Part shown: piece by piece, positions 7,011 through 60,896 of the stretch
How positions within the stretch are numbered: position 1 is the first letter of the stretch
Layout of the letters: each line of letters opens with the position of its first letter
Source of the DNA: a virus
IMG/VR virus record: IMGVR_UViG_3300006076_000001
Span: 1-64,000 of that record
Length of the DNA: 64,000 bases
Strand: one strand, 5' to 3'
Made by a program: the position numbers and the translations under genes
The notes under the pieces: model-generated
Told to the model about the DNA's origin: nothing
The model's database searches: none
Seen by the model: the letters and a program-made list of their open reading frames with translations, nothing else

Positions 7011-9081
7011 CATTATCTCCTATACAAGCAAATTTAGAACTATCTAATTTAGGTAATTCAAAATGAGGTACATTAAAATTAAGTGATAAATCTAATTTGA
7101 TATTACCAAAATCATACGGCTTACAATTTAATGCCTCTTTCAATGCTAAAATGTTGTCTATTGCTGTTTCTGCGTGTGATTTTAAAGTGTTAAAGGCTGT
7201 CTCTGCTTGAGTTTTAATAATATTACCTATATTAGAAGAGTTATCATTTAGACATTGTTCGAAGACTTTGTCCGCTTCCTCTTTAAACTCTTTAGCTTTA
7301 TCTGCTCCTAATTTTTGATGAACTGACCCAGCTAAAGTAGCTGTTAAATTAGAGTTGTAACCTTTCATTAAATTGGAATAAACATCATTAGTATTATTAG
7401 AAAAAGTTTCTTTTACTTTATCTGTAAAAGTAGACCAAGTATCAACTCCCTCAAATTGAATCAATTTATCTAAATTAGTAAGAGTTTTAATAACTCCCTT
7501 AATAACTGAAACAATGAAACATAAAATAGCTTTTATAGCACAAACAATTTGATTTAAAGTAGCAAGTAAAGCTTCGAATGGAGTAGTAAGCATAGTAAGT
7601 AAATTAGCTACAAAATTATTAGGATTTATTATATCAAGAATTGCAAGAACAGAATTACCTAAGTTCTCTATCATTCCTTTAACTTCATCTATATATTGTT
7701 GAGCTGTATCACTTACATTTGAGAAAAAATCCTTAACCAGAGACACTTTATCCTGCATAACAGATAGAAAGTCTTTTAATTTAGTGGTATATTTATTTCC
7801 AATAATGGCAAAAGGTCTTATTAATGATTGCTGAAAAGCGTAAATTTTTTCCTGTATTGATAAGATTTTATTATAAATGTTTTTGGTTTTAAGATTTAAT
7901 AAATGAAGTTTTTGGTAAATTACATCTTTTCTTTTTATCAAATCGTCTTTTTGCCCGTCAGTAATGTCATTTGTATGTTGAATAACATTTACCAAATCTG
8001 AAATCGCATTCATTTCATTCTGTATGTCTGAAATCAATTGATTTATTGTTTCTTCATCTGTTTCTGGTAATGAAAAATTATCTGGAAGCTCATCATCTGA
8101 TAAACCAATTTCTAATGCGATTTCTAAAGAAGTTTCTATGATATCATTAAATTGTAATTGTGAGTTCTCAATAAATAACCACTGAGTTAAAATCGATTGA
8201 ATGTATCCGACTTCTATTTGATTATTATGAAGTAATTCATTTAATTCTTCAATGTTAAATGTAATATAAGCGTTATTTACATAAACTACAAAAATTTGTA
8301 ACATCTGAACGAATTGTTTTCTTGTAAGATTATAACATTTTTGAATTGGTAAATTATTTATTATTTTTTGATAGAAATCAGATGGTAAAATCAATTTATT
8401 TGAATAATAGATTTCCTCTGAATCAATATAAGTGTATATCTCTGAAAGATTATCTGTGTAATCTAAAAATAGATTATCAAATTTAGTTAATATTTGATTT
8501 TGTAAAGTTACAATTATTTTTAGCCTTGTGTATTCATCTCTATCTTTCAACCATTTCAATAACAATTTACCGATTTCTGTTTTATCGTTATTTAAACTTT
8601 CATAAATAAATTTACTATCTAAATCAATCAGTGATGGGTTATGGACTATAACTAATAAGTCATTTTTATCTAAAAGTGTTTTTTTAAGCAATTGTTTATT
8701 TAAATCAATTAAGTCATCTGTATCTTCTGCTAAAGCAAAATTAACAATTTGGGTAGTAAAAGTAATAAGTGGCATTAGTTCCTCTATGTCTGAATAAGTT
8801 TGAAATAATTTACTTAGAGTATATAGTCTTTTATGGCAAGTTGAATTTTCATCTGCATATAGATTTAAATTATCTGAAATCAATTGAGATAGTAATTGTT
8901 TGTTGTAAATGTATGAATTACAAAAATCATCAATGTAATTTGGTAAATAATTACAATCTATGTTTCCTTTGTATAAGTCTTGTAAATATTGAATCAATGG
9001 CGGAGTTGTATCTACTTTCTGATGATAGAAGCCGTATTTAATATGTTTTATACTTTCAAATATCTCATTCAAATAAACCAT
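7000..9081 (-). CDS. Large unknown baseplate-region protein
   Basis: 693 aa, unrecognised. The first ~330 residues are strongly helical and acidic. Residues ~340-470 include coiled-coil-like stretches (IQNEMNAISDLVNVIQ onward), and around 500-540 there is a hydrophobic region (LLTMLTTPFEALLATLNQIV, then AILCFIVSVIKGVI) that could form one or two membrane-active helices. It lies between the OB-fold spike gene and the beta-helix spike gene, so it is probably a virion protein of the hub or spike, perhaps acting at the host membrane. That is inference from position and hydrophobicity. Start 9081 has AAAGGA upstream. Confidence 0.55.
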   Translation of the reverse strand: MVYLNEIFESIKHIKYGFYHQKVDTTPPLIQYLQDLYKGNIDCNYLPNYIDDFCNSYIYNKQLLSQLISDNLNLYADENSTCHKRLYTLSKLFQTYSDIEELMPLITFTTQIVNFALAEDTDDLIDLNKQLLKKTLLDKNDLLVIVHNPSLIDLDSKFIYESLNNDKTEIGKLLLKWLKDRDEYTRLKIIVTLQNQILTKFDNLFLDYTDNLSEIYTYIDSEEIYYSNKLILPSDFYQKIINNLPIQKCYNLTRKQFVQMLQIFVVYVNNAYITFNIEELNELLHNNQIEVGYIQSILTQWLFIENSQLQFNDIIETSLEIALEIGLSDDELPDNFSLPETDEETINQLISDIQNEMNAISDLVNVIQHTNDITDGQKDDLIKRKDVIYQKLHLLNLKTKNIYNKILSIQEKIYAFQQSLIRPFAIIGNKYTTKLKDFLSVMQDKVSLVKDFFSNVSDTAQQYIDEVKGMIENLGNSVLAILDIINPNNFVANLLTMLTTPFEALLATLNQIVCAIKAILCFIVSVIKGVIKTLTNLDKLIQFEGVDTWSTFTDKVKETFSNNTNDVYSNLMKGYNSNLTATLAGSVHQKLGADKAKEFKEEADKVFEQCLNDNSSNIGNIIKTQAETAFNTLKSHAETAIDNILALKEALNCKPYDFGNIKLDLSLNFNVPHFELPKLDSSKFACIGDNDGV

Positions 9082-9083
9082 TG

Positions 9084-9410
9084 TTATCCTTTTTCTGGTG
9101 CTTTATTTGGTAACACGGCTGTAACTACTCCGTGATAAAAATCATTATCTAAAAATTTAACCAATACATAAGCCCCAATAGGTGGGACAGTGGCTGATTG
9201 ATTAACAGAGTTAGAATTAGTGGTAAGAACTGGATAAAAAGGTAATTTATCAGTCGGAATTTTATCATTAAGACCTTTTATCTTAACTCTAACCCTATAA
9301 ATAGGTGTACCCGTATCAGAAAAGCCAGTATCACTATTATCTACAATCTGTCCTATAAACTCATTCTTTAATAATCTATCAAATTCAGAATTAATAACCT
9401 CTCTATACAT
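9084..9410 (-). CDS. Baseplate spike OB-fold protein (gp5 N-terminal-like)
   Basis: 108 aa. The pattern FIGQIVDNSDTGF...GTPIYRVRVKIKGL, then VPPIGAYVLVKFLDNDFYHGVV, is that of the OB-fold domain of T4 gp5 and VgrG-like proteins: an opening GxVVDN strand, an R-V-R-V strand, and P-x-G-x-x-V near the end. The domain connects the hub to the needle. Here it stands alone, without lysozyme or helix domains. It lies 3 nt before the 693-aa gene. Start at 9410 has AGGAGGAAAGG upstream. Confidence 0.8.
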   Translation of the reverse strand: MYREVINSEFDRLLKNEFIGQIVDNSDTGFSDTGTPIYRVRVKIKGLNDKIPTDKLPFYPVLTTNSNSVNQSATVPPIGAYVLVKFLDNDFYHGVVTAVLPNKAPEKG

Positions 9411-9425
9411 AACTTACCTTTCCTC

Positions 9426-23149: not shown

Positions 23150-23989
23150 TTATTTGTCTCCTTTTATTAAGTTAGTCAAAATAGATTCTATTTCATCAAA
23201 TTTATAATAAGGTATTCTGATTAAATTAATCTTGTTTGCTTTAGCATAATTATTTTTAATTTTATCTCTTTTCTGAATGTTTTCAAGCTCCTCTTTTCCA
23301 CCAAAATTGTTATTTGGTTTAAAATGCTGTTCTCCGTCATACTCAATCAAAACATTATAATCTGGCAAATAAAAATCGAAATAATAACTTTTATTATCGA
23401 TAAGCACTTTATATTGGTGAGTATAATTAATGTTATGCCTATCTAAAAAGTGTTTTATCTTAAGTTCCCCCTTAGACAATTTACAATAAATACAACCAAA
23501 TTGTTCTTTATGTAAATGGTTTTTCACACTTTGATAAAATAGTCCGTGTTGAGGACAAATGATTGATATCTTTGTGTGTACCCCTTTATAATGCTGTCCC
23601 CACCAAATTTCATTAAATGGATAAGTGTATCTATTATTATGGATTTTGTTGGCTCTAACAATAAACTCTTGATAAGTAAGTTTTTTCTCTATATTAAGAC
23701 AATTGAGACATTGATGTCCCTCAAGATGTTTATTGATTCTTCTATTAAAAATAGCCCCACATACCTCACATTTTAATGGAACTTTATCCTTAAAAGAAGT
23801 AATATTATTAAGCCACCAATCTAAATCAAACTGGTAAGAGATGGTATCATATAGCCTGTTGTGTTTTTCCACAAAATAATAATATTTAAACTCTTTTGAA
23901 AGATACCTGATAACATTAGACCCCAATTTAAGGTCTCTTTGATTTTTAAGAAACAAAATCCAACTATTTATATCCATATCTTTAAACAT
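23150..23989 (-). CDS. Zinc-ribbon-repeat homing endonuclease-like protein (2 modules)
   Basis: 279 aa, the shortest of five paralogues. After an N-terminal part related to the others (WILFLKNQRDLKLGSNVIRY) there are two zinc-ribbon-like modules: a degenerate one (LKCEVCGAIFNRRINKHLEG) and a good one (IICPQHGLFYQSVKNHL then GCIYC). The last ~110 residues form a PD-(D/E)XK-type nuclease: NKSYYFDFYLPDYNVLIEYD with GEQHF following (D..., E-x-D-G-x-QH). It sits between the UvrD-like helicase and the 272-aa gene. I infer a free-standing homing endonuclease; the binding site AAAAAGG is weaker than most. Confidence 0.7.
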   Translation of the reverse strand: MFKDMDINSWILFLKNQRDLKLGSNVIRYLSKEFKYYYFVEKHNRLYDTISYQFDLDWWLNNITSFKDKVPLKCEVCGAIFNRRINKHLEGHQCLNCLNIEKKLTYQEFIVRANKIHNNRYTYPFNEIWWGQHYKGVHTKISIICPQHGLFYQSVKNHLHKEQFGCIYCKLSKGELKIKHFLDRHNINYTHQYKVLIDNKSYYFDFYLPDYNVLIEYDGEQHFKPNNNFGGKEELENIQKRDKIKNNYAKANKINLIRIPYYKFDEIESILTNLIKGDK

Positions 23990-29250: not shown

Positions 29251-30891
29251 TTAATTATAAGACTTTTTCCACTCCCATTTAAAATTACCAGAATTATAAA
29301 CTCTGATTAGTCCCATTTTATCTGTTATTTCTCTTTCTGTCATATCTTCAGAAACCCAATCCGCCATTTTTAATAATCTCTTCTTTTGAAAAAGTCTTCT
29401 ATGTTTTCTAATTAAATCTTTATTAAAATAAAAATAAGTAGGAACAGTAATATGGACGAATTTAAACCCGTTCTTACCATAAACTACATTATCTTTGATA
29501 TTATTTAAATCAATGTGGGAAAATGTAGTTACCCAATTTGGATTATATTTAGATATAAAATGCTTAAATAATTTAGAAAAGCCTCCCACGATTATAAAGT
29601 CTTGTTTATTTGCAAACTTATCTATCTCCCATCTGTCTTCTTGTTTCCAGTATTTAATTGATATTAAAGAGATTATAGTGTTATCATACTTTAATGCAAG
29701 AAATAATTTAGCTGGAGCAAATCCATCAATGTGGTTTTCATCTAAAAAATTCTTAGCGGTGTTGTAATCCACCTCTTCAACTTTACACTTTCTAGCATAG
29801 ACTCTATTTTTAACTTTACCTAACTTTTGCCTAATAAAAGATTTAACTATATTATTTTTATATAACCACCAGTCTTCCCAAATGTGTATAAGAGTTATAC
29901 CTTTATTAGCAAAGTATAATGATTTTTCTTGATGATACTTTTTAGGTTTATTAATATCGGAATGCCAAAAAATACCATTATATTCAAACCCTATGTTTAA
30001 TTCTGGAATAAACACATCGATTTCATACTTATTATCTTTGTATTTAGTAGTGTTAAAGCCTAATGATTCAATAAATTGTCTAAGCTCTTCTTCCCCTTTA
30101 GAATAATTACTAGCACATTTGGGACACCCATATCCAGATAAATGATTATCAATAATTTGTTTAAATTCTCCGTGAATAGGACAAATAATAGTAACTTCGG
30201 TATCTTTTCTTTTATTATAACTCCTATCCCACCAATTTTTACCAACAGGATAAGTGTATTTGTTATTATGAGTTCTAATAGCTCTTTCAATAAACTCTTG
30301 ATAGGATAATCGTTTGGAATCGTTTGATTTTTCTCTACCACACTCAGGACAACCCTCTCCTCTTAAATGAGCGTTCACACTCTGCATAAATTCTCCGTGA
30401 ATAGGACAGATAATGGGGACTTTCTGACTATGATTTTTGTAATTTTCTTGCCACCAGTTATTATCAAAAGGGTATTGATACCTATTATTATGAACTCTTT
30501 TTGCTTTATTAATAAAGTCTTGGTATGATAATCTATGCTTTTTAATTGAGTTTATTCTACCACACTCAGGACAACCTTTACCACTTAAATGACCTAAAAT
30601 ACTCTGTTTAAATTCTCCGTGAATAGGACAGATAATAGGTATCTTTGTATTTTTATCTTTATAATTAATAACAAACCAATCAAATGTAAATTGAGAATAA
30701 TTGTATCTATTATTATGAGTTTTTTCTAATTTTTCTCTAACCAAATAATATTGGAACTCTTTTGGCAACTTGGAAATAGTAATAGGGTTTATGGATTTAA
30801 GTTTTTCTATTGGTTGTTTGTCTAACCAATCAATCCACTTATTTATATCAGAAAGGTTATCTGTAAGTTGTTTTATTTCTGATAACTTCAT
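29251..30891 (-). CDS. Zinc-ribbon-repeat homing endonuclease-like protein (3 modules, GNAT-like tail)
   Basis: 546 aa. N-terminal helical part conserved in the paralogues (KLSEIKQLTDNLSDI ... PKEFQYYLV), then three modules with CPIHGEF and GCPEC/GCPKC at about 88, 162 and 237. A PD-(D/E)XK nuclease follows (EELRQFIESLGFNTTKYKD, then YEIDVFIPELNIGFEYNGIF). The last ~200 residues (VYARKCKVEEVDYNTAKNFL ... GGFSKLFKHF ... KNGFKFVHITVPTYFYF) form the GNAT-like domain found in many phage endonucleases. It lies between the capsid gene, which ends in a terminator, and the helicase loader-like gene. AGGAG before the start. Confidence 0.75.
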   Translation of the reverse strand: MKLSEIKQLTDNLSDINKWIDWLDKQPIEKLKSINPITISKLPKEFQYYLVREKLEKTHNNRYNYSQFTFDWFVINYKDKNTKIPIICPIHGEFKQSILGHLSGKGCPECGRINSIKKHRLSYQDFINKAKRVHNNRYQYPFDNNWWQENYKNHSQKVPIICPIHGEFMQSVNAHLRGEGCPECGREKSNDSKRLSYQEFIERAIRTHNNKYTYPVGKNWWDRSYNKRKDTEVTIICPIHGEFKQIIDNHLSGYGCPKCASNYSKGEEELRQFIESLGFNTTKYKDNKYEIDVFIPELNIGFEYNGIFWHSDINKPKKYHQEKSLYFANKGITLIHIWEDWWLYKNNIVKSFIRQKLGKVKNRVYARKCKVEEVDYNTAKNFLDENHIDGFAPAKLFLALKYDNTIISLISIKYWKQEDRWEIDKFANKQDFIIVGGFSKLFKHFISKYNPNWVTTFSHIDLNNIKDNVVYGKNGFKFVHITVPTYFYFNKDLIRKHRRLFQKKRLLKMADWVSEDMTEREITDKMGLIRVYNSGNFKWEWKKSYN

Positions 30892-33818: not shown

Positions 33819-34649
33819 TTAAAAAATCTTTTCTAAGTTCCATTTTTCTATAAAATCGACTGGGAATGATACCAATCTATCTAATTCTAAAATTACTTGT
33901 TCTCCGTCATAAACAATAAATTTATGTGAGCCATCTGGTAAAGCATCTAACTCTTTTTCTAACTGCTCTTTGTCTATCTTATCAAATTTATCTTTAGATA
34001 GACCTATTATTCTTGTGTATGGTTTATAGGTATGTTTTAAGTCCCCAAACATTCTATTTAGTCTATTTTTTTCAATCCACTTATTTATAGCCGTAATGAT
34101 GAGAATCAATTGGATAGCTGATGCACTCTGAATTGGAAAGTTCATCGCTAATCTCTCAGCTTGGGATTTAAGAGACCAATATTTCTTTCTAAGTTTTGGG
34201 TCGGCTTTTTCCTCTGGAGTAATTTTTCTTGTAGCCATAGGTAAATATCTTTTTGAGCCAAAAATGTTATCTGTGTACCCCTCAGTTTTTACTCTTTCTT
34301 TTTGAAATTTATGTAATACTTTAAGTCTTGATAGATTAGAATAAAATCTATTAATAATTTCATTTGCTTCCTCTTTTGATATACCTACTTTTTGAGAGAC
34401 TGTGTATTCAGTTCCACCATATAATAAAGCTAACCCGACTGTTTTAGCAATAGCCCTCATTTCATTTTTGAATTTATGATATGCCTCTTTATTACCAGTT
34501 GCTTCATACTCCCTAACCAATTTATCAAACTCTTCTCCATAAATGGATAAAGCATTGGCACTATGGAAGTCTCCTATATAAGTTTTTGGAGTATCATCTT
34601 TATAATCTTTTAATTCCTCAAAAATCTTACTTAACTTAGCTTTATCCAT
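33819..34649 (-). CDS. DNA polymerase family A segment with motif B (fingers)
   Basis: 276 aa. Residues ~20-190 match the fingers of family A polymerases: GDFHSANALSIYG (D-x-H...A), then the O-helix/motif B region RAIAKTVGLALLYGG (R..K....L-x-YG), the SKEEANEIINRFYSNLSRL helix, GSKRYLP, and AERLAMNFPIQSASAIQL (ER...N-x-P-x-Q-x-x-A). It begins just after the place where motif A (DYSQIELR) should be and carries no motif C. The last ~75 residues (KHTYKPYTRIIGLSKDKFD...) are unassigned. AAAAGGAG before the start at 34649. Confidence 0.65.
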   Translation of the reverse strand: MDKAKLSKIFEELKDYKDDTPKTYIGDFHSANALSIYGEEFDKLVREYEATGNKEAYHKFKNEMRAIAKTVGLALLYGGTEYTVSQKVGISKEEANEIINRFYSNLSRLKVLHKFQKERVKTEGYTDNIFGSKRYLPMATRKITPEEKADPKLRKKYWSLKSQAERLAMNFPIQSASAIQLILIITAINKWIEKNRLNRMFGDLKHTYKPYTRIIGLSKDKFDKIDKEQLEKELDALPDGSHKFIVYDGEQVILELDRLVSFPVDFIEKWNLEKIF

Positions 34650-35028
34650 TATTTGCTCCTTTTACTCCTACATTTGTAATTTTATTTATCTCCCACATTT
34701 TATTTTCCGAATGAAAAGTAAATACATAGTTAATGTCTCTATCAAAGAAATATTGTTTATCTCTATCACAAACTGGTATTTTTTCTGGATTTAGATTTAA
34801 GAAAGAATACAAAGTGTAAATGTTAAGTGGGGTTATTTTTAACCCTCTTGTATCTTCATTAAATGAGACCTCAAAATCTAAATGACTTTTATCATACCCT
34901 AAATCTAAACATACAGATAATAAATCAGAGTGTATTTGATGTATTAAAAAATTAGTATAAATGGCACATTCATACTTATTTAACACTTTCTGAATCTCTA
35001 ACCTTAACTGAAATTTAGTTTTATCCAT
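34642..35028 (-). CDS. Unknown protein between endonuclease and polymerase segment
   Basis: 128 aa, unrecognised (MDKTKFQLRLEIQKVLNKYE ... WEINKITNVGVKGANNG). It overlaps both neighbours by 8 nt. A 20-bp sequence around its start (35020-35039) is repeated exactly around the start of the next gene (34641-34660), and the C-terminal GANNG is shared with the endonuclease gene. It was examined for polymerase motif A and lacks it. Start at 35028 has GGAG upstream. Confidence 0.5.
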   Translation of the reverse strand: MDKTKFQLRLEIQKVLNKYECAIYTNFLIHQIHSDLLSVCLDLGYDKSHLDFEVSFNEDTRGLKITPLNIYTLYSFLNLNPEKIPVCDRDKQYFFDRDINYVFTFHSENKMWEINKITNVGVKGANNG

Positions 35029-36352
35029 TATTTGCTCCTATTTCTGATTTCACTAAATCAATAATTGTTTTCTTTATTTCCTCATCAGTCTTATAATATG
35101 GTATTCTAATTAATTTAATTTTGTTATCTTTTGCAAAAGTATCTTTAATTTTATCTCTTTGTTTAATTTTTTCAAATCCTATTTTTCCACCCCAATTATC
35201 AACTGGCTCAAAATGTTGTTTTCCGTCATACTCAATAAAGGTGTTATAATCTGGAAGATAGAAATCAAAATAATAATTTGAATCATTAATTTTAACTCTG
35301 TATTGATGAATATAATTAACACCTAATTCATCTAAAATTGATTGAATAAATAACTCTCCTTTTGAAGTATTACATTTAGGACAGCCGTGATTGTTTAAAT
35401 GATTGTCTATCCTTTGATAAAACAATTCGTGTTGAGGACAAACAATTGGGATTTTTTGTTTATTATTTTGATAATTACTCTGCCACCAATCCAATGATGG
35501 ATAGGTATATCTATCTCCGTGAGTTTGGATAGCACTCTTAATAAAGTCTTGATATGATAATCTATGATTGTTTTCCAGCTTTTCTCTACCACATTTGAGA
35601 CAACCTCTACCCTGTAAATGACTTTCTACACTTTGATAAAATAAGCCGTGAATGGGACAGATAATAGGTATTTGGGTAGAGTTATTTTTGTAATTTTCTT
35701 GCCACCAATTAGCATCAATTGGGTAGATATAAAAATCATTATGGATTTTAGTGGCTTTATTAATAAACTCTTCATAAGATAATCGTTTAAAATCTTCTGA
35801 TTTCTTTCTCCCACATTTGGGACAACCTCTACCCTGTAAATGTTTAGCTATTTTTTGTTTAAATTCTCCGTGAATAGAACAAACAATTGGAATATAAGTT
35901 GATTGTAAAGTTTTGTAGTTTTCTTGCCACCAATTTTCATCAAAAGGATAGATGTATTTATTATTGTGAATCTTATTTGTTCTATCTATAAACTCTTTAT
36001 AAGACATTTTTAAAGTGTTTTTACCACATTTAGGACAGCCATATAATTGATGGTTAGTAACACTTTGATAAAATAAGCCGTGAGTAGGACAAACAATTGG
36101 GACTTTAGTGTTTTTATCTTTATAATTGGAAATAAACCAATCCAATGTAAATTGAGAATAGTTGTATCTATTTTTATGAACTTTTCTAAATTTCTCTAAA
36201 ATCAAATGGTATTGAAACTCTTTTGGTAATTTAGAAATGGTTGATGATTTTATTGATTTTAAATCATTAAAAGAGAGGTTTTGGAGAAGTCCTCTCCACT
36301 TATCTAAATTAGATAAGTTGTCTGTAAGTTGTTTAATTTCTTTCAAATTCAT
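35021..36352 (-). CDS. Zinc-ribbon-repeat homing endonuclease-like protein (4 modules)
   Basis: 443 aa. Conserved N-terminal part (NLKEIKQLTDNLSNLDKW ... PKEFQYHLI), four modules with CPTHGLF/CSIHGEF/CPIHGLF/CPQHELF and their GCPKC/GCLKC pairs, spaced ~70 residues. The C-terminal ~105 residues are the short nuclease: DSNYYFDFYLPDYNTFIEYD, then GKQHF, ending in LIRIPYYK. Located just downstream of nrdB (10 nt), so nrdB has one of these genes on each side. Binding site AAAGAG is weak. Inferred free-standing homing endonuclease. Confidence 0.75.
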   Translation of the reverse strand: MNLKEIKQLTDNLSNLDKWRGLLQNLSFNDLKSIKSSTISKLPKEFQYHLILEKFRKVHKNRYNYSQFTLDWFISNYKDKNTKVPIVCPTHGLFYQSVTNHQLYGCPKCGKNTLKMSYKEFIDRTNKIHNNKYIYPFDENWWQENYKTLQSTYIPIVCSIHGEFKQKIAKHLQGRGCPKCGRKKSEDFKRLSYEEFINKATKIHNDFYIYPIDANWWQENYKNNSTQIPIICPIHGLFYQSVESHLQGRGCLKCGREKLENNHRLSYQDFIKSAIQTHGDRYTYPSLDWWQSNYQNNKQKIPIVCPQHELFYQRIDNHLNNHGCPKCNTSKGELFIQSILDELGVNYIHQYRVKINDSNYYFDFYLPDYNTFIEYDGKQHFEPVDNWGGKIGFEKIKQRDKIKDTFAKDNKIKLIRIPYYKTDEEIKKTIIDLVKSEIGANNG

Positions 36353-36362
36353 TTAAACTCTT

Positions 36363-37439
36363 TTAATCAAAGAGGTCATCTACATCTACTGCTTTTTTAT
36401 TTCCAGTGCTTCTTTCGAAAGAATAATCAGTTACTGTATTAGTAAATGGGTTTGTATCTCTAACTTTCATTGATGATGAATCTTCTGCTTCAAATCTATC
36501 ATCATATCTTTTGTAAGGGTTTTCTGTGTAAGAACTATAAGGGTTATTTGAAATACCTATCTCTCTAAGTCTTTTATTAGCTAAAAATCTTGTATATTTT
36601 TCTATGATTGCATCAGAGAAACCTACAATTGGAGCAAGAATATCTTTACTAAATTGTTCTTCTAATTCTACTCCTTTTCTCATTTCTTCAATAACCATTT
36701 CCTCATCAAAGAAATCTGGGTATATTGCTCTTATCTCTTTAATTAAGTTTCTATATAGGATTAGATGTGAAACTTCGTCTCTATTGATTAAGTAAATCAT
36801 ATCTGCGGTAGACCTCATTAGTCCTTTCTCAGCAAGAATGTAAAAGAACTTAAATCCATTATAAAAATAAAGTCCCTCTAAAATATAATCACCAATAATA
36901 GCTCTAGCAAAAGTTCTATCAGTAGGGTTATCTGCGAAATCCTGATAAATTTGAGCTATATATCCATTTCTTTCTTTAAGTAATTCGTGAGTTCTCCAAA
37001 AGTCATAGATTTGTTTCTTCTCCTCTGGAGTAGGTATTACAGTCTCAATACAAGTAGAATAAGCCTGAGAATGTATGTCTTCTTGAAAAGCTTGGAAAAC
37101 TAATAAAGATGTTACATCTGGAGCTGTGATGTATGAAGCAAACTGAAATGGATTGATTGTTTGAATTGAATCTAAAAACACTAAAAATGACAGAATACCA
37201 TTATATCCTCTTTGAACTTCTGGTAATAAGTTAGGATATTGTCTAGCATCTTCATAGAACTCTATATCCTCTGGAAACCAAATGTCCTTTCTCATTTTAG
37301 TTCTTAAATCTTGATACCATTTTTTATTTGCATATTTACCAAAGTTATGAGTAGCCAATCCAGTTGTATTAGCACCAATAATATCATTTTTAAATGAATC
37401 TCCCTCTGGATTCCATAGTCTTCTTTTTTTAATCCTCAT
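36363..37439 (-). CDS. nrdB: Ribonucleotide reductase class I beta chain (from internal start)
   Basis: 358 aa if started at the ATG at 37439-37437, which follows AAAGGAGA by 7-8 nt. Class I beta ligands are kept: D in FLDSIQ, E-x-x-H in QEDIHSQAY, E in DYILEGLYF and E-x-x-H in DEVSHL. The Tyr four residues after the first His is the place of the radical Tyr. It makes the radical used by NrdA (encoded at 55129) for dNTP synthesis. The reading frame continues without a stop into an upstream endonuclease gene (see 36363-38543). The C-terminus (VDVDDLFD) is acidic, as NrdB tails that bind NrdA are. Confidence 0.9.
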   Translation of the reverse strand: MRIKKRRLWNPEGDSFKNDIIGANTTGLATHNFGKYANKKWYQDLRTKMRKDIWFPEDIEFYEDARQYPNLLPEVQRGYNGILSFLVFLDSIQTINPFQFASYITAPDVTSLLVFQAFQEDIHSQAYSTCIETVIPTPEEKKQIYDFWRTHELLKERNGYIAQIYQDFADNPTDRTFARAIIGDYILEGLYFYNGFKFFYILAEKGLMRSTADMIYLINRDEVSHLILYRNLIKEIRAIYPDFFDEEMVIEEMRKGVELEEQFSKDILAPIVGFSDAIIEKYTRFLANKRLREIGISNNPYSSYTENPYKRYDDRFEAEDSSSMKVRDTNPFTNTVTDYSFERSTGNKKAVDVDDLFD

Positions 37440-38543
37440 AGCTCTATCTCCTTTCATCTTAATTAAATTTTTAATAGTGTGTTCCACTTCTTCATCAGTT
37501 TTATAATATGGTATTCTAACCAATTTAATTTGGTTGTTTTTTGCAAAATCATTTTTAATTTTATCCCTCTGTTTTACCTTTTCAAACCCTACCCTACCAC
37601 CCCAACCCTTAATTGGTTTAAAGTGCTGTTCTCCGTCATACTCAATAAAAATGTTATAGTCTGGAAGATAAAAGTCAAAATAATAATTTGAATCATTAAT
37701 TTTAACTCTATATTGATAGATATAATTAACATCTAAATCGTCTAAAATTGATTTTATTTTGAGTTCTCCCTTAGACGATTTACAAACAGGACAGCCGTGA
37801 TTGTTTAAATGATTATTAACTGATTGATAAAATAGACCGTGAATAGGACAAATAATTGGGACTTTGGTGTTATCTTTTCCTTTATAATTTTCTCGCCACC
37901 AGTTATTATCAAAAGGGTACTGATAGTAACTATTATGGATTTTAGTAGCTTTATCAATAAACCCTTTATAAGACAATTTTTGATTATCAGTTGAACTCTT
38001 TTTTCCACACTTAGGACAGCCGTGATTATTTAAATGGTCGCCTACTCTCTGATAAAACAAACTATGAATAGGGCAAATAATAGGGGCTTTGGTATGTCTG
38101 TTTTTATAATTTTTATTCCACCAATTCTCATTAAATGGATACTGATATCTACCATTATGAATCTGAATAGCTTTTCTAATAAAATCTTGATAGGATAATT
38201 TTTTATTTCCAATACATTTAGAACAATTTTGCCCTCTCAAATGTCTATCTATCCTTTGATAAAACAATCCGTGTTGAGGACAAATGATTGGAACTTTTTG
38301 TTTGTTATTTTGATAATTATCTATAAACCAATTTAAGGTAAATTTAGAATAATCATATCTATTTCCGTGAATCTTTCTAAACTTCTCTTTAACCAAATAA
38401 TATTGGAACTCTTTTGGCAACTTGGAGATGGTTGTTGGTTTTATTAGTTTTAATTCCTCAAGAGAGGAATTTTTAATAAACCCTTTCCATTTGTATAAAC
38501 TTTTGAAGTTGTCTGTAAGTTGTTTAATTTCTTTCAAATTCAC
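36363..38543 (-). CDS. Zinc-ribbon-repeat endonuclease fused in frame to NrdB
   Basis: 726 aa from a GTG at 38543 (AGGGGA upstream). Residues 1-368 are a complete paralogue of the endonuclease family: N-terminal part, three modules (CPQHGLF, CPIHSLF, CPIHGLF with Cys pairs) and the short nuclease (YYFDFYLPDYNIFIEYDGEQ then HF, ending RIPYYKTDEEV). No stop codon separates it from NrdB; MKGDRAMRIKKRR bridges the two. The 3' end of the endonuclease contains NrdB's binding site. Both a 726-aa fusion and a free 358-aa NrdB could be made. Confidence 0.75.
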   Translation of the reverse strand: MNLKEIKQLTDNFKSLYKWKGFIKNSSLEELKLIKPTTISKLPKEFQYYLVKEKFRKIHGNRYDYSKFTLNWFIDNYQNNKQKVPIICPQHGLFYQRIDRHLRGQNCSKCIGNKKLSYQDFIRKAIQIHNGRYQYPFNENWWNKNYKNRHTKAPIICPIHSLFYQRVGDHLNNHGCPKCGKKSSTDNQKLSYKGFIDKATKIHNSYYQYPFDNNWWRENYKGKDNTKVPIICPIHGLFYQSVNNHLNNHGCPVCKSSKGELKIKSILDDLDVNYIYQYRVKINDSNYYFDFYLPDYNIFIEYDGEQHFKPIKGWGGRVGFEKVKQRDKIKNDFAKNNQIKLVRIPYYKTDEEVEHTIKNLIKMKGDRAMRIKKRRLWNPEGDSFKNDIIGANTTGLATHNFGKYANKKWYQDLRTKMRKDIWFPEDIEFYEDARQYPNLLPEVQRGYNGILSFLVFLDSIQTINPFQFASYITAPDVTSLLVFQAFQEDIHSQAYSTCIETVIPTPEEKKQIYDFWRTHELLKERNGYIAQIYQDFADNPTDRTFARAIIGDYILEGLYFYNGFKFFYILAEKGLMRSTADMIYLINRDEVSHLILYRNLIKEIRAIYPDFFDEEMVIEEMRKGVELEEQFSKDILAPIVGFSDAIIEKYTRFLANKRLREIGISNNPYSSYTENPYKRYDDRFEAEDSSSMKVRDTNPFTNTVTDYSFERSTGNKKAVDVDDLFD

Positions 38544-38556
38544 TAAATCCCCTATT

Positions 38557-43666: not shown

Positions 43667-45385
43667 TTAATTCTTGCTTTTATATTCCCAAGAAATTAAA
43701 GTGTTAATTATTCTTTGTTCTGCTTCTCTCTCTAACTCTTCCATTTGTGGGAGTTTAGTAACGACTTTTTTTAATTTAACCAATTTTGGTGATTCTGACG
43801 GCATACCCTGAGTATTTAAAGAGTGGGTAATACCATTACCTAATTTTAATTTACAATTTGTTTTAGTTTTAAGTTTATTAAAAGTTGCATATCTTGGGTG
43901 TCCTGACCCTTTTTCATTTGCAAATCTTAGGGTATCAGTACCGATGTATCTCAAATTAATATTAACAAAAAAATGGTTTCTGTCATCAATGTAAAGGTTA
44001 TATAAAATACCATAATAAATTGCTATATCTTTAACTAAAGACCTATATAAAGAAATAATACTTAATAAAGTTTGAATATCTTGTTTAGTATCCTCTGGTA
44101 AGAACTCTGCTTCCATAACAGCTGATTTAAATTTAGATAAAATGGAGTCATCCATATTGAACTGCTCTTTAATTGCACCACTTTTTAATTTATCTACTTT
44201 TCTAACCAATCCAAAATAGTCCTCTATATACTTATAGAAGTTATTTTCATCTCCTTTCCATAAAGGTTTTAGTATATAATTAACTATTATCACAGACACC
44301 ATAGGACTGACTACTGATATCTCCTCTTCATAACCATACTTTTTAAGTGTATTAATAAATTTTTGCTCTAAAAGTATCATTCTAATGTTAATTGTTTTGA
44401 TTGTCCTAACCAATCTGTCTTTATCGATTAAAAGCCCGTATTGTAAAGATGAAATTACATAATACAAAGCTTGATGAACTATTTTAGTTGTAGTAGGTTG
44501 CTCTTTATATGGGTTTCTACCATAAATGTCGTCTATCACAAATGCTTTAAACAAACCATAGGTATTAGTAGCATCTGACCCAGCATATGTTAAAGCATTT
44601 GAAACTGGCAACCTGTTAAAAGAAATGTGATTTTTAGTGGGTAAATTTAAAATTTCATTAATTTCAAGCATCTTTCTATTAAGTACATACTCTGATAATG
44701 CTTTAAGCCCATGACCTATATTCATAGGCATAAACTCTTGATTATTCATCAATTTTGAAACCAACATTGTATCTGTTATTGGGATATTACCTATTTTAAT
44801 TCCCCAGTTAGATAAATGAGCTAAGTCAAATTGTGCGTTATGTAAAACAATATGGAAATTGTCTATCAACCATTGTAAAAATGGTTTGACTTGTGTCTCC
44901 CAATCTAAATTTTTTATGCCATCTGTTTCTGTATGTTTAACTGGTAAAATAAACCCCTCTTTATCAGAAATAGCTAACGGAACTGAAACGATTTCTGTAT
45001 CTGGAACAAACCTACCTTTAATCAATTTACCTTTAGTAGATAACCCCGAAGTTTCTAAATCCAATGCAATAACAGGTTTATTGAAGCCGTCATAAGTAAC
45101 TGCTTTCTCTTTAATATAACTTTTGAATTTATCTAAATCTTTATCTACAACTTCTACATAATCAGCAATTGGAGTAAATAATTTATCCTTATCAATCTCA
45201 GTTGTAATAATTTTAAAAGAACATTCCTTTACCCAGTCGTGCATTTTAGCAAAATTATGAGGTAAAAATACCTCTGACGGCTCTAATGGAGAAAAGTCTT
45301 TTTCTAATTTACTATCAATTAATTCCTGATAATTTGGGATTTCAACAGGAACTTTATCATAAACAAAAAAATCTTTATACTTCAA
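43667..45385 (-). CDS. DNA polymerase family A, 3'-5' exonuclease and thumb segment
   Basis: 572 aa from a TTG at 45385, seven nt after AAAGGAG. DnaQ-like proofreading exonuclease: Exo I VIALDLETSG (D109, E111), Exo II LHNAQFDLAHL (~187), Exo III YAGSDATNTYGLFK (~290). The thumb follows, and the start of the polymerase domain shows LRYIGTDTLRFAN (equivalent to TGRLSS) and HSLNTQGMPS (equivalent to NLQNIP). It ends ~40 residues later with a charged tail (VKLKKVVTKLPQMEELE), before motif A. Fingers and palm motif C are in other genes (33819, 33157). Confidence 0.8.
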   Translation of the reverse strand: MKYKDFFVYDKVPVEIPNYQELIDSKLEKDFSPLEPSEVFLPHNFAKMHDWVKECSFKIITTEIDKDKLFTPIADYVEVVDKDLDKFKSYIKEKAVTYDGFNKPVIALDLETSGLSTKGKLIKGRFVPDTEIVSVPLAISDKEGFILPVKHTETDGIKNLDWETQVKPFLQWLIDNFHIVLHNAQFDLAHLSNWGIKIGNIPITDTMLVSKLMNNQEFMPMNIGHGLKALSEYVLNRKMLEINEILNLPTKNHISFNRLPVSNALTYAGSDATNTYGLFKAFVIDDIYGRNPYKEQPTTTKIVHQALYYVISSLQYGLLIDKDRLVRTIKTINIRMILLEQKFINTLKKYGYEEEISVVSPMVSVIIVNYILKPLWKGDENNFYKYIEDYFGLVRKVDKLKSGAIKEQFNMDDSILSKFKSAVMEAEFLPEDTKQDIQTLLSIISLYRSLVKDIAIYYGILYNLYIDDRNHFFVNINLRYIGTDTLRFANEKGSGHPRYATFNKLKTKTNCKLKLGNGITHSLNTQGMPSESPKLVKLKKVVTKLPQMEELEREAEQRIINTLISWEYKSKN

Positions 45386-51555: not shown

Positions 51556-53397
51556 TCAACCCTCCCATTCCCATTTAAAATTACCAGAATTATAAACCCG
51601 ATACCACCCAGCTAAATCCATAATTTCCCGTTCTGTGTAATCACCTTTAGCTTCAAAAACTTTAGAAATAATAGGCTTTAAATAATCATAATTTAATAAT
51701 TTATGTTTTTGAAAATGATTTCTACTGTATCTCTTAGTCTTATCTGGACTGATATAAAAATAAGATGGGTCAGTTATACTAATCAATTTAAATCCCGCTT
51801 TATAATAAACCGAATCAGTCTCAAGATTGTTTAAATCTATTGCCGAAAAGGTTATGATTTTATCAGGATTATTTTCTCTTAAAAAGTGTTTAAATAATTT
51901 AGAGAACCCACCGACTACTGAATAATTTCTCTCCGTAGCAAATCTATCTATTTCCCAATAATCCTTTTTCTTGATAAAAGTCAGAACTTGAATCAATTTG
52001 TCTTGATAAAATAAGCCATAATATAAATTGGACGATTTAGTCCCCTGAAAATGATTTCTATCTAAAAAGTCTTTAACATCTTTATATTTAAGTTGTCTAA
52101 TTTCACATTTTCTAGCATAAACCCTGTATTTTGATTTACCTAATTGATTCCTTATAAAAGCAAATACTAAGTCTCTCTTATTCAACCACCAATCCTCCCA
52201 GATATGTACTAACTTAATTCCTTTTTCTGCAAAATACAATGACTTTTCTTGATGATACTTTGGATGTTTAAATTGGTCTGAATGCCACCTAATCCCGTTA
52301 AACTCAAAGCCTATATTAAGTTCTGGAATAAAGATGTCTATTTCATATTTACTGTCTTTGTATTTAGTAGTATTAAATCCAAAAGATTCTATATATCTTC
52401 TTATCTCTTCCTCCCCATTTGAAAAAGTATTCCCACATTTAGGACAACCCTCACCCTGCAAATGAGAATTAACCTGTTGATGGAATAAGCCGTGTTGAGG
52501 ACAAATAATTGAAACTTTTTCTTTACTATTTCTATAATGTTGTTTCCACCAATCTAATGATGGGTAAATATATTTATTTCCGTGAATTTGTGTAGCTTTT
52601 TCTATAAACTCTTGATAAGAAAGTCTATTTTTATCTCCCATTGTTTCATAACCACATTTAAGACAGCCTTTACCACTTAGATGACTACCCACACCCTGCA
52701 TAAATTCTCCGTGTTGAGGACAAATAATTGGTACTTTGGTATCTTTATTTTTATAATTCTCTTGCCACCACTCTTCATTAAAAGGGTATTGATACCTGTT
52801 TTTATGGATTTTGGTAGCTTTACTAATAAAGTCTTGATAAGATAACTTTTTATTATTAGCACATTCGGGACAGCCTAAACCTTTTAAATGATTTTCTGCT
52901 TTTTGATAAAATAACCCGTGTTGAGGACAAATGATAGGGACTTCACTTTTCATCCCTCTATAGTTATTACACCACCAATCATTATCAAAAGAGTAATTAT
53001 ATAAATTATTATGGACTTTAGTGGCTTTTCTTATAAAGTCTTGATAAGAAAGTTTTCTATTTTTAGCACATTTAGGACAGCCGTGATTATTAAGATGGTC
53101 GTTTATTCTTTGATAAAATAAGCCGTGAATGGGACAGATAATAGGTATTTTAGTTGCACTCCCACCAAAATTATCTATAAACCAATCTAATGTAAATTGA
53201 GAGTAATCGTATCTGTTATTATAAATTTTGATTAATTTCTCTAAAATTAAATAATATTGGAACTCTTTTGGTAATCTTGAAATAACAGCGGAATTTATAG
53301 ACTTTAATTCCTCAAGAGAGGAATTATTGAGAAATTGTTTCCATTTATTTAAATTAGTTAGATTATCTGTAAGTTGTCTAATATCTGACAATCTCAT
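51556..53397 (-). CDS. Zinc-ribbon-repeat homing endonuclease-like protein (4 modules, GNAT-like tail)
   Basis: 613 aa, the largest of the free-standing paralogues. N-terminal part to ~65 (LSDIRQLTDNLTNLNKWK), four modules with CPIHG/CPQHG at 88, 157, 227 and 299 and matching GCPKC/GCPEC/GCLKC pairs, a PD-(D/E)XK nuclease at ~325-420 (YEIDIFIPELNIGFEFNGIR, catalytic D354 and E366), and the GNAT-like tail (NHFQGTKSSNLYYGLFYQ ... GGFSKLFKHF). It lies between the portal gene and the sigma-like gene, after a TTATTATAAAAA box. Start 53397 has AAAGGGAG. Confidence 0.8.
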   Translation of the reverse strand: MRLSDIRQLTDNLTNLNKWKQFLNNSSLEELKSINSAVISRLPKEFQYYLILEKLIKIYNNRYDYSQFTLDWFIDNFGGSATKIPIICPIHGLFYQRINDHLNNHGCPKCAKNRKLSYQDFIRKATKVHNNLYNYSFDNDWWCNNYRGMKSEVPIICPQHGLFYQKAENHLKGLGCPECANNKKLSYQDFISKATKIHKNRYQYPFNEEWWQENYKNKDTKVPIICPQHGEFMQGVGSHLSGKGCLKCGYETMGDKNRLSYQEFIEKATQIHGNKYIYPSLDWWKQHYRNSKEKVSIICPQHGLFHQQVNSHLQGEGCPKCGNTFSNGEEEIRRYIESFGFNTTKYKDSKYEIDIFIPELNIGFEFNGIRWHSDQFKHPKYHQEKSLYFAEKGIKLVHIWEDWWLNKRDLVFAFIRNQLGKSKYRVYARKCEIRQLKYKDVKDFLDRNHFQGTKSSNLYYGLFYQDKLIQVLTFIKKKDYWEIDRFATERNYSVVGGFSKLFKHFLRENNPDKIITFSAIDLNNLETDSVYYKAGFKLISITDPSYFYISPDKTKRYSRNHFQKHKLLNYDYLKPIISKVFEAKGDYTEREIMDLAGWYRVYNSGNFKWEWEG

Positions 53398-55128: not shown

Positions 55129-57468
55129 TTAATTAGCACAACCTACACAAATATAACTAGTAGGTCTTGCGTAATAGGTTGTTTTAATACCTTTTTGCCA
55201 AGCTTTGATATAAAATTTAGCTAAATAATTTGAATCGTGTTTATTACTAAAATAAGGAACTTCCATAGAAATACCCATATCTACCCATTTTTGGAATAAA
55301 GCATAAGTATCTAAGTATTGAGTAAAGATGTCAATGTTATAAAGAGAACTTGCATTATAGACCCATCTATATTTATCATATTCAGGAACTACTACTGTCT
55401 CTGTTCCAAAAATACCTGTTTTTTCATAAATTGGAGATTTAATAGGCATAATTGATGCTGTTTCTCCCATAACTGCTGAAGTTCCAGTATTAGGAGCTAT
55501 AGCAAAAAGTCCAGTGTTTGCCATTCCTTTTTCTTTAATAAGATTATGAAGTTCAATCCATTTATTACCTAATTTACCATTTTTAGCGATTTCTTCTACA
55601 GGTCTACCAAAGAATACACCTCTTTCCCAATCTGAGCCATAAAATGCTGGAGCTACTCCAAAAAATCCAGTAGCTTTAACTGATGCTTTAATTACATAAT
55701 AAGCTACTCTCTCAAGAACTTCTTCAGTCCATTTTAAAGCTTCTGGTGTCCCATAAACTAAGTTATGTCTAGCTAATGCATGAGCGTAACCAATATAACC
55801 TATACCGATTTTTCTAAACTTTTTATCGAATTTAGTTGATTGAGGATTTGATGAATGAGTTAAACTCATTACTGCGTTTAATTGTAATACTATGGTATCA
55901 GCTACATCCCCTAACTCTTCATCTGATAAATCACAGATTTTATTAAAGTTTAAAGATGATAAATGACAAGTAGCCGCAAATGAATCTTTTAAATTCCATT
56001 TAATAGTTTCGATGTCATTTTCAAATAAATGTTCTTGTGGATTAATGTCATCATTAAATGGAGTATGTATCCCTAAAAATTCCATACATAAATTACCAGA
56101 ATAAATTACACCTTTATGTTTATTTGCATTTGCTCTATTAACTGCATCTCTATAAAAGAAAAACGGGTCACCTATTTCTGGGACTCTGTCTATAATTTCC
56201 ATATAAAATGACAGAGCGTCCACTTGTTTAAATAGTCTTAATTTACCCTCAATCCCCATTTGTTCCAGCATTTTATACTTTTCTTCAAACTCTTCGCCAT
56301 AAAAATCAGATAAATCTTTACCCAAAATCTGTTTAATTTCATAAGGGTCAAATAAAGACCATTTTCCTTTTTGTTTTATTCTCTTAAAGAATAAATCAGG
56401 AACTGAAACACTTCTGAAAATCGTAGTAGCTTTCTTTTTAACATCACCATTAATGTCTTTCAACTGAATAAAATCACCAATGTCAAAATGCCATAAATCC
56501 ATAGTAACATTAGCATTACCTTGTCTTATGTCTAATTGGTCTGTTGCTGATACACAAGCATCTACAATCCTAATGTATGGTATTGACCCACCAGCAACTC
56601 CCCATTTTCCTTTAATTGCTGAGCCTCTTGCCCTAATTTTCCCCATATAAACACCGAAACCTCTACCCATAGATAAGTCTTCAGTTAATTTAACAATCGA
56701 ATAATTTATTGATTTCAAACTATCACCAATAGCAAGAACTTCACAAGATGTCCCATTAAAGTTATTTGTTCTTAAATTAGATAGTATTGGAGTAGCTGGA
56801 GAAATTGTTCTTTCTTTAACAAAATGTTTAAATAGTTTTTTTACCATTAGATTTCTAAAGTCTTTAGATTTAAACACAGAAGCAATTGCCATTGCAACAC
56901 CAAGATACATCTCTTGTGGTAACTCAACTACCTTATTACCTTTATTAGCTAAATATTGAGACTCCATAGACCTCAAAACAACTGGTTCTAATTCATTTTC
57001 CCAATTTTCATTATACATTGAAACAAACTCTTTTAAGTCATCATCTGAATAACAGCTAAACAACTCTTTATTCCAAACACCTAATTCCATAAGCTTTTTA
57101 ATAACTTCTATTCTTGTATCAATAGAGCCATACCCAAATTTCCTATTTACTTTAGTCCCTAAAATTTTTGCCGTATTGTATCTAATCCTTTTATTTAAGT
57201 CCATATTAATTAAACGACCTTTTACATAAGTCCAATTAGGATTATCAGAATCAATTAATTGTTCTGCTGTATCAATTAACATTTGCTGAATTTCTATTGT
57301 TTTAATACCATCTTTTATTAATAAAGAAAATTTTTCTTCTAACACCTGAGGGTCTACCCCATCAATCCCCTCTGTAGCCCATTTAATTGTTCTTCTAATT
57401 TTAGAACTATTCCATTCCACTTTAGAGCCATCTCTTTTTTCTACAAAGACTTTTCTATTACCTACCAT
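55129..57468 (-). CDS. nrdA: Ribonucleotide reductase class I alpha chain
   Basis: 779 aa. N-terminal ATP-cone (VFVEKRDGSKVEWNSSKIRR). Active-site Cys positions: FNGTSCEVLAIGD, NLCMEFLGI and FAATCHLSSLNF; Asn/Glu in the NLC-x-E segment. Substrate loop GGSIPYIRIVDACVSATDQL. The C-terminal Cys pair (YICVGCAN) transfers electrons. It reduces ribonucleotides with the NrdB radical (gene at 36363, ~17 kb away). Between portal and protease genes, an unusual location. Start 57468 has AAAGGAG. Confidence 0.95.
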   Translation of the reverse strand: MVGNRKVFVEKRDGSKVEWNSSKIRRTIKWATEGIDGVDPQVLEEKFSLLIKDGIKTIEIQQMLIDTAEQLIDSDNPNWTYVKGRLINMDLNKRIRYNTAKILGTKVNRKFGYGSIDTRIEVIKKLMELGVWNKELFSCYSDDDLKEFVSMYNENWENELEPVVLRSMESQYLANKGNKVVELPQEMYLGVAMAIASVFKSKDFRNLMVKKLFKHFVKERTISPATPILSNLRTNNFNGTSCEVLAIGDSLKSINYSIVKLTEDLSMGRGFGVYMGKIRARGSAIKGKWGVAGGSIPYIRIVDACVSATDQLDIRQGNANVTMDLWHFDIGDFIQLKDINGDVKKKATTIFRSVSVPDLFFKRIKQKGKWSLFDPYEIKQILGKDLSDFYGEEFEEKYKMLEQMGIEGKLRLFKQVDALSFYMEIIDRVPEIGDPFFFYRDAVNRANANKHKGVIYSGNLCMEFLGIHTPFNDDINPQEHLFENDIETIKWNLKDSFAATCHLSSLNFNKICDLSDEELGDVADTIVLQLNAVMSLTHSSNPQSTKFDKKFRKIGIGYIGYAHALARHNLVYGTPEALKWTEEVLERVAYYVIKASVKATGFFGVAPAFYGSDWERGVFFGRPVEEIAKNGKLGNKWIELHNLIKEKGMANTGLFAIAPNTGTSAVMGETASIMPIKSPIYEKTGIFGTETVVVPEYDKYRWVYNASSLYNIDIFTQYLDTYALFQKWVDMGISMEVPYFSNKHDSNYLAKFYIKAWQKGIKTTYYARPTSYICVGCAN

Positions 57469-59066: not shown

Positions 59067-60896
59067 TTATCTCCCTCTTTTTGTTATCTTATTTAACAAC
59101 CTCTTATTTTGTCTATATACTACTCTTGATTTCACATAATTCGTAGAAATCATTTGATTTTTAAAATCCTCAAAATACTTATGACCTAAATATAAAGCTT
59201 TAGTAGCCGCTGAAAATCTATCATCGTGTTTCCCGTTTGGAGCTTCTACTTTTAAAAAGCCCCCACTAACTTTTTTAACTTGTAAATCTATGATTTCTTC
59301 TGTAAAAGAAATAGTTTGAATGGTTTCTTCTTCTCCTTTCAATGTAACTCTTTCCTCTATTGCATATGGAGACCAAACCAATCTACCATTTAATAATTCT
59401 CTACTAAATAATTTAGCGACTTCATTATTGAATGCCACAGTAGGGTTGATAACCTCTAATTGTCTATGATAACCTCTATGATTAAAATACTTGACAAAAA
59501 ACTCTTTAGCCCAATTGTCTATACCTATTTTAACCACTCTAAAGTTTCTCAAAATGGATAATAACTCTTCCATTATTATATCAGGGTCTAATGGCTTACC
59601 TTTAATAGGAGTCCAAGAATGGATAAAATCATAAACAAAAGCTGGTTTAGAGTCATCTACCTCTAAATAAGGTAATAAAGTTTCATCTGGTAATTGTCTA
59701 TTATGAATAATATTATAATCAAAATGTCCTATAGCTAAAGCAAATCCGTCTGATGTTAAAGCTGGGTCTACTCCTACAAAGTAAGGGGTATTAGGACTAC
59801 CGATTGGTTGATTAGGCACTTGTAAATCCTCACATACTTTCACTTTATTAGGAATAGGTATGAAAGAAGAAGATGATGATGTAAATTCAGCAAGAAATTC
59901 TTGTTTATATTTAAACGGAGATTTTTTATACTCAGATTTCAAAAATAATGGTGATAAAGTTGGATTAGTCCAATGTGATGGGACATTAATCATAATAACA
60001 TTAGGATTATCAAAAGACTCTTTGTATAATTCGTATCCTTTACCTTTTTTACCATTAGGTGATGATGCTATAAGAATTAAACCTGCTGGTGTCCCATCTT
60101 CATATTTGAAACCAGAAACAGATGGAGTAGAAGCCGTATAAACTAATTCATCTAATGGCTCACTCTTTGTAGATTTATTACTATCTATAAAATGACAGAA
60201 CTCATCAAGAGCTACCACTATGTTGTTTCCTCCCCTAATAGATGGACTAGCGGCTGAAACTTTTACTTTCAATAAACCATATTTTTTAGTCCTGTCTTCT
60301 AATTGTTTCTTAACAAATAAATCAAACCCACTATTTGAATACTCTTTAGGATTAACTAGGTATGGCTTAAAAAAATCAGTAGAATAAACCATATTACCTA
60401 TTTCTTGTGCTTGTTTAGTAGCATTATCCTCTTTATTTGAAATAACCGAAACGGAAATCTCAGAATAAGGTATGACTTTAAAATATTCTTGTGGTGTAGG
60501 CTCTAACATTTCTAATTCATAAAGTTTATGAGAAGATAGAATAGACATCATTGTAGTTTTAGTACCTCTTCTACCTACAAAAAATCTAACTTCAAAAATC
60601 CTTGAATCTGGTTGTTTATCTACATTAATTCTACCCTCTTTATATAGAAATCTAAGAAAATCAAACTCAGAATCAAAAATGTGAATAACTTTTTCATTAA
60701 ATTCATCTTTTATAATAATAGGGTCTTCCAATTTATCAGATAACGGAATGTTATACATCATTTTAAATATAAATCTCTGAACTGGAAAAAGTTTAAGCCC
60801 CAAAAATTTAGGGGACTCTGCAAACTCTATAACATTTAGAAGTCTATTAGAGTCTTCATCAGCTAAGTTCTTTCTGACTAAATCGACTAAAGCCAT
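59067..60896 (-). CDS. Terminase large subunit
   Basis: 609 aa. ATPase: Walker A variant VGRRGTKTTM (107-116) and Walker B IVVALDEFCHF (D231-E232). RNase H-like nuclease: GVDPALTSDGFALAI (D377), IGIDNWAKEFF, and the final HDD in GKHDDRFSAATKAL (~560). It cuts the concatemer and drives packaging through the portal. Two genes upstream is a possible small subunit. Start 60896 has AAGGTAG. Confidence 0.93.
   Translation of the reverse strand: MALVDLVRKNLADEDSNRLLNVIEFAESPKFLGLKLFPVQRFIFKMMYNIPLSDKLEDPIIIKDEFNEKVIHIFDSEFDFLRFLYKEGRINVDKQPDSRIFEVRFFVGRRGTKTTMMSILSSHKLYELEMLEPTPQEYFKVIPYSEISVSVISNKEDNATKQAQEIGNMVYSTDFFKPYLVNPKEYSNSGFDLFVKKQLEDRTKKYGLLKVKVSAASPSIRGGNNIVVALDEFCHFIDSNKSTKSEPLDELVYTASTPSVSGFKYEDGTPAGLILIASSPNGKKGKGYELYKESFDNPNVIMINVPSHWTNPTLSPLFLKSEYKKSPFKYKQEFLAEFTSSSSSFIPIPNKVKVCEDLQVPNQPIGSPNTPYFVGVDPALTSDGFALAIGHFDYNIIHNRQLPDETLLPYLEVDDSKPAFVYDFIHSWTPIKGKPLDPDIIMEELLSILRNFRVVKIGIDNWAKEFFVKYFNHRGYHRQLEVINPTVAFNNEVAKLFSRELLNGRLVWSPYAIEERVTLKGEEETIQTISFTEEIIDLQVKKVSGGFLKVEAPNGKHDDRFSAATKALYLGHKYFEDFKNQMISTNYVKSRVVYRQNKRLLNKITKRGR

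Follow-up and report, generated by a model that had tools for sequence, protein, structure and literature searches.

In T4-like phages, the homing endonuclease gene mobE lies between nrdA and nrdB and its product targets nrdB, and Hef of phage U5 likewise cleaves nrdB (PMC2988022). The overlaps described in that paper are with the gene upstream, and mobE is separated from nrdB by a promoter in T4 (PMC2988022). Phage endonucleases are often found near genes for ribonucleotide reductase (RNR), as in 33% of T5orf172 neighbourhoods (PMC10448857). In 128 phage genomes that were surveyed for RNR genes, split genes as well as insertions of mobE are described, with the words 'fused' and 'fusion' absent from the main text (PMC3653736). 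Extra domains preceding NrdB in one open frame are known from N-terminal Grx and ATP-cone additions in Facklamia, where they are functional, in Leeuwenhoekiella and Francisella and from Grx-NrdB fusions in 24 viruses (PMC6187632).

While endonucleases next to nrdB and N-terminal NrdB fusions of other kinds have precedents, the locus described here has a homing endonuclease that is joined in frame to NrdB, a combination that our searches did not list. The locus belongs to an uncultured phage and was analyzed in a window of 64,000 nucleotides, positions 1-64,000 of the IMG/VR record IMGVR_UViG_3300006076_000001, which comprises 93,786 bases and may be incomplete. Like mobE of T4, the endonuclease gene is located directly upstream of nrdB, but it encodes a Vsr-like nuclease in frame with NrdB, whereas MobE belongs to the HNH nucleases and is made as a protein of its own (PMC2988022). 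Grx and ATP-cone additions serve the chemistry or control of RNR (PMC6187632), whereas the addition in the window consists of a selfish nuclease and leaves the NrdB start in place. The context of mobE is the spacer between nrdA and nrdB, whereas nrdA of the window is about 16 kb away from the fused gene. In some phages hef reportedly occurs in place of mobE, judging by the title of a cited study.

Results

The fused frame occupies positions 36363-38543 of the minus strand and is open over 726 codons from a GTG at 38543 to the stop at 36363, which bears out an earlier note on this DNA that had described an endonuclease paralogue running without a stop into NrdB. It encodes, in this order, a full-length Vsr-like homing endonuclease, a junction of six residues and a complete NrdB. 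Both halves have matches in Pfam and PHROGs that are beyond chance (phrog_559, an endonuclease family, over residues 45-372 and phrog_86, NrdB, over residues 373-712), and both appear intact by their alignments and dN/dS. The endonuclease shares with free-standing homing endonucleases the combination of a DNA-binding module and a nuclease, paralogues in the genome, a position adjoining an essential gene and the absence of an intron or intein; it departs from them in lacking a frame of its own with its own stop, being in frame with NrdB with no stop between. A stop codon that would yield free endonuclease is absent from the sequence. An intron or intein was considered and rejected, with NrdB complete and no Rfam family reaching the threshold in the window.

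Read from its own ATG at 37439, nrdB (36363-37439, minus strand) encodes 358 amino acids that align with other phage NrdBs from the first residues onward. It is the sole NrdB match in the 93,786-base record, and no second NrdB was found elsewhere in that possibly incomplete record. Pfam Ribonuc_red_sm matches with 201.9 bits against a cut-off of 33.6, and D90, E120, H123, Y127, E188, E222 and H225 are invariant in seven aligned NrdBs; from their roles in E. coli R2 we take these residues to be the metal ligands and the radical tyrosine. By its ligands, tyrosine and full length, the second half is identified from sequence as the class I ribonucleotide reductase small subunit NrdB. Its Shine-Dalgarno sequence, AAAGGAGAT at 37446-37454 (minus strand), lies inside the endonuclease frame and scores -8.7 kcal/mol in pairing with an anti-Shine-Dalgarno tail, a strength equalled or exceeded at 24 of 71 minus-strand ORF starts versus 1 of 272 other internal in-frame ATGs. 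The internal start thus equals the usual starts of the phage in quality, so that free NrdB is very likely made from ATG 37439, and the earlier claim of an internal ATG giving a normal 358-residue NrdB agrees with our analysis.

Translation of the endonuclease would start at a GTG (38541-38543) preceded by a Shine-Dalgarno-like AGGGGA at 38548-38553 (minus strand) with -6.4 kcal/mol, and 48 of 71 minus-strand ORF starts have a Shine-Dalgarno sequence at least as strong. Zinc-ribbon repeats of the DUF723/DUF4379/CapR-like type, recognized by Pfam, Cys/His columns and the fold model, cover approximately residues 80-255 (37779-38306, minus strand). The Cys/His columns are conserved in the alignment, and the Pfam matches, which fall short of the curated cut-offs in the fusion, exceed them for two of the paralogues (35021 and 29251); the repeats likely serve DNA binding. 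The Vsr-like nuclease domain follows at approximately residues 256-365 (37449-37778, minus strand), with the EDxHD endonuclease I-Bth0305I as best match.

The fold model of the endonuclease has a pLDDT of 87, and among Foldseek's top-ranked chains it superimposes best on 3r3p, the catalytic domain of the intron-encoded I-Bth0305I (Z 12.0, rmsd 2.8, 95 aligned residues), followed by Vsr 1cw0 (Z 11.4, rmsd 2.5, 105 aligned residues). The modelled nuclease fold is Vsr-like. This alone is insufficient to assign the EDxHD family, because other Vsr-like proteins such as the mitoribosomal chain 9g6k_Li also score high (Z 11.2). By itself, the Foldseek ranking was weak, with a mitoribosomal chain on top (E 0.0022, rmsd 20.7), followed by AbaSI, PvuRts1I and Vsr with E values of 0.011-0.057, and searching the PDB with the endonuclease sequence yielded no informative match and none to I-Bth0305I. 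In common with I-Bth0305I and EDxHD enzymes, the fused endonuclease is predicted to join this nuclease fold to a DNA-binding region; it differs in having zinc-ribbon repeats as DNA-binding part. Across 23 aligned sequences, D290, E301, D303, H307 and D327 are invariant and E260 is nearly so, and these columns likely form a putative active site. The endonuclease and the paralogue at 35021-36352 share 64% identity, and the note's description of a complete endonuclease of 368 residues holds, with homology through K362 and the likely active-site columns invariant. Comparison with this neighbouring paralogue gave a dN/dS of 0.24 over 363 codons, a rough value with dS near 1 or above. The branch of the fused endonuclease is not faster, because dN to a third paralogue is 0.37 for the fused endonuclease and 0.38 for the neighbour. 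As judged from these sequence comparisons, the endonuclease is without sign of decay.

The junction consists of the codons for MKGDRA, residues 363-368 (37440-37457, minus strand), which form the end of the last endonuclease helix and the link to NrdB. Protein homology with the paralogues reaches the motif NLIK, ending with K362 one codon before those for K364-D366, which encode the NrdB Shine-Dalgarno sequence, so that only six codons separate the end of homology from the NrdB ATG. At the DNA level, the match to the 35021-36352 paralogue stops at about 37488. The pLDDT is low here, under 50 for residues 366-368 in one model and for residues 364-368 in another. The alignment with which the fusion was folded replaced one that had NrdB rows at 16-24% identity and invariant columns placed in the endonuclease half.

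The record contains five endonuclease places including the fused one, all of them inside the window. Directly downstream of nrdB, the paralogue of 443 amino acids at 35021-36352 (minus strand) covers with its last codons the Shine-Dalgarno sequence and ATG of the ORF at 34642-35028, overlapping it out of frame by 8 nt. A paralogue of 279 amino acids (23150-23989, minus strand) ends with LIKGDK and a stop, where KGD forms the Shine-Dalgarno sequence of the next gene, whose ATG follows after a 1-nt gap and is not in frame. The remaining two, of 546 amino acids (29251-30891, minus strand) and 613 amino acids (51556-53397, minus strand), have a different C-terminal region and their own stops, and the latter is one ORF away from nrdA (55129-57468). 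All three paralogues of the window that have a C-terminus of the fused type cross the Shine-Dalgarno sequence of the next gene, by a 1-nt gap, an out-of-frame overlap and, in the fusion, in frame. A special habit of the endonucleases to end in the Shine-Dalgarno sequence of the next gene was rejected: 36 of 70 neighbouring gene pairs in the window are tightly packed, 19 with an overlap and 17 with a distance of at most 12 nt, and because such packing is common among its ordinary genes, the overlap says nothing special about endonucleases. The five endonuclease genes (23150-53397) make up about 10.6% of the window, compared to approximately 11% in T4 (PMC2988022).

Surveys of other loci did not reveal a second case. 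In the 80 viral NrdB loci examined, the best of 473, the open frame never extends more than 60 residues ahead of the NrdB profile; many of these loci are near-identical contigs, and the N-terminus is partly seen in L092, which starts at position 54 of the profile, and in L022, which starts at the edge of a contig. Related endonuclease frames were joined to a non-endonuclease gene in 0 of 121 cases, 81 viral and 40 from genomes. The viral frames carry an EYDGxQH-type motif and come from 72 of 80 loci, the best 80 of at least 563, and 80 of the 81 stop 51-77 residues past the motif. The exception, L101, continues for 284 residues into another endonuclease-type region. By eye, this frame (L101:2950-4650) is a composite of an EYDGxQH-type core and a C-terminal region resembling the other endonuclease type of the window. 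The 40 genome frames were scored from 44 loci and have tails of 83 residues at most; four of the tails, with 6-24 residues, appear truncated or divergent. By an automatic, purely mechanical rule, 12 of the 69 distinct tails from viral contigs run over a downstream start that has a Shine-Dalgarno-like site, and one more lies within 24 nt of such a start.

Searches with the fusion itself gave a similar picture. In tblastn, 3099 phage records match some part of it and none covers 80% in one place, and the 50 listed rows (of 477) of a BFVD search with the fusion model are endonuclease-like or NrdB, none being named as both. A single-protein scan gave one relative for NrdB, the nearest found, with 46% identity. 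Its nrdB is preceded by nrdA and not by an endonuclease, but the relative is too distant for a comparison of presence and absence or of the junction. No endonuclease-NrdB fusion was recognizable in the literature from titles and the starts of abstracts, a search that covered few subscription papers. No example other than the present one therefore emerged from the databases and papers searched, as the earlier note had supposed, and the joining looks rare in the sequences surveyed. The closest arrangement is found in L076 (IMGVR_UViG_3300026518_000006), where the last codons of a T5orf172-type endonuclease similarly cover the Shine-Dalgarno sequence and start of nrdB, overlapping its ATG by 11 nt. 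There, the nuclease domain is T5orf172 and the overlap is out of frame, so that two separate proteins result. In the same locus (L076:1-2585) nrdA is split: an N-terminal part with an intein-like stretch at its end is accompanied by a separate ORF resembling endonucleases (1189-2118) and by one that carries the C-terminal part of nrdA, an organization similar to the 'fractured gene' arrangement.

Discussion

The explanation that we consider probable is that a free-standing Vsr-like homing endonuclease gene without its own stop landed directly ahead of the nrdB Shine-Dalgarno sequence, by chance in the nrdB frame, and that the resulting fusion is tolerated. Ribosomes starting at GTG 38543 would produce the endonuclease-NrdB fusion at low level, and those starting at ATG 37439 would produce ordinary NrdB, probably as the larger share. 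The sequence thereby permits two of the products that the earlier note had offered as alternatives, the fusion and free NrdB; free endonuclease is impossible without a stop, and the nuclease would exist only as fusion unless a protease cuts it off. Tolerance would be favored by the NrdB start, by the acceptance of N-terminal additions in other organisms and by the possible pairing of fused with free NrdB subunits, in which case RNR need not suffer. The note had further suggested that the endonuclease would be tied to the essential gene. Protection of the endonuclease by such a tie is not supported, because NrdB has its own start and stays readable after a stop or frameshift in the endonuclease; the dependence runs the opposite way, as the endonuclease has no stop except that of NrdB.

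An accidental in-frame insertion is the simpler reading because tight packing is general in the window, two paralogues cross the next Shine-Dalgarno sequence out of frame and L076 shows a comparable overlap. Under such packing, we estimate that a gene ending without its own stop lands in the frame of the next gene in about one of three or four cases, so that the open junction, taken by itself, argues only weakly for design. The joining may be a mere side effect of the landing place of a selfish gene. Harmless joins of this kind might be expected to yield more in-frame fusions to non-endonuclease genes than the 0 found in 81 viral and 40 genome frames, which counts against an accident, although this comparison of frequencies is loose because many of the overlaps are of the start/stop type, for which a shared frame is impossible. 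A further point against it is that the arrangement is known in one copy, which gives no support for stability of the frame.

Alternatively, the fusion could have been selected because NrdB stabilizes the endonuclease, serves as its dimer partner or brings it to sites of replication, to the benefit of phage or endonuclease. Both halves are intact, the dN/dS is low, the branch of the fused endonuclease is not accelerated and the arrangement is unusual, all of which would suit a working fusion. NrdB is a dimer. EDxHD enzymes dimerize on a long target (PMC3943268), and functional N-terminal NrdB fusions exist (PMC6187632). However, the dN/dS mirrors the past of the endonuclease rather than the link, and the junction, which is short, owes its form to the NrdB Shine-Dalgarno sequence; the internal start releases NrdB from the fusion, and a second example is lacking. 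We regard selection for the fusion as unlikely. There is likewise a small chance that the selfish endonuclease has turned into a stable domain of an essential enzyme, with plain and nuclease-bearing NrdB side by side and the dimeric state and abundance of NrdB serving the nuclease.

The open junction might also be an artefact of sequencing or assembly, or a very recent mutation might have erased a stop or shifted the frame, in which case the real genes merely abut. The locus is known from one virus record, the other two frames close near the junction, and exact stretches of 35 to 37 nt that the fusion region has in common with paralogues can confuse short-read assembly. These stretches lie away from the junction, and no exact repeat of at least 21 nt within the window touches it, as none starts below 37624 in the fusion region. 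Moreover, there is no long single-base run at the junction, and protein homology continues in frame up to one codon before the Shine-Dalgarno sequence, which makes such an error improbable. We consider it very unlikely that the endonuclease start is hardly used, leaving the junction silent and free NrdB alone to accumulate. Its GTG codon and a Shine-Dalgarno sequence weaker than that of about two thirds of the ORF starts would fit this idea, and several free-standing endonucleases of T4 are thought to be kept at low translation (PMC2988022), but the Shine-Dalgarno sequence at 38548-38553 is recognizable and the endonuclease coding sequence is intact.

If the fusion is made, it would mean that a mobile endonuclease can use the stop codon of its neighbour and be produced only within an essential enzyme. 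Either domestication or loss could follow from such an early step. Endonucleases ending in the ribosome-binding site of the next gene should sometimes fuse with it, yet the loci examined contain no second case.

A promoter scan gave 25 sites versus 22.6 expected, which is uninformative, and a terminator scan gave no terminators. The ORF at 59067-60896 is a terminase by its matches; among the 12 of its 25 phage matches that are listed, identity is at most 31.1%. A family A DNA polymerase is encoded in two ORFs approximately 9 kb apart, one with the exonuclease part and one with the polymerase-domain part (43667-45385 and 33819-34649), and the relative L002 by eye has a short polymerase-like ORF as well (8635-9417). 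The successive ORFs starting at 34649 and 35028 share their opening stretch, AGGAGCAAATAATGGATAAA, and each is preceded by a frame that ends with GANNG and a stop; this is perhaps a duplicated gene start.
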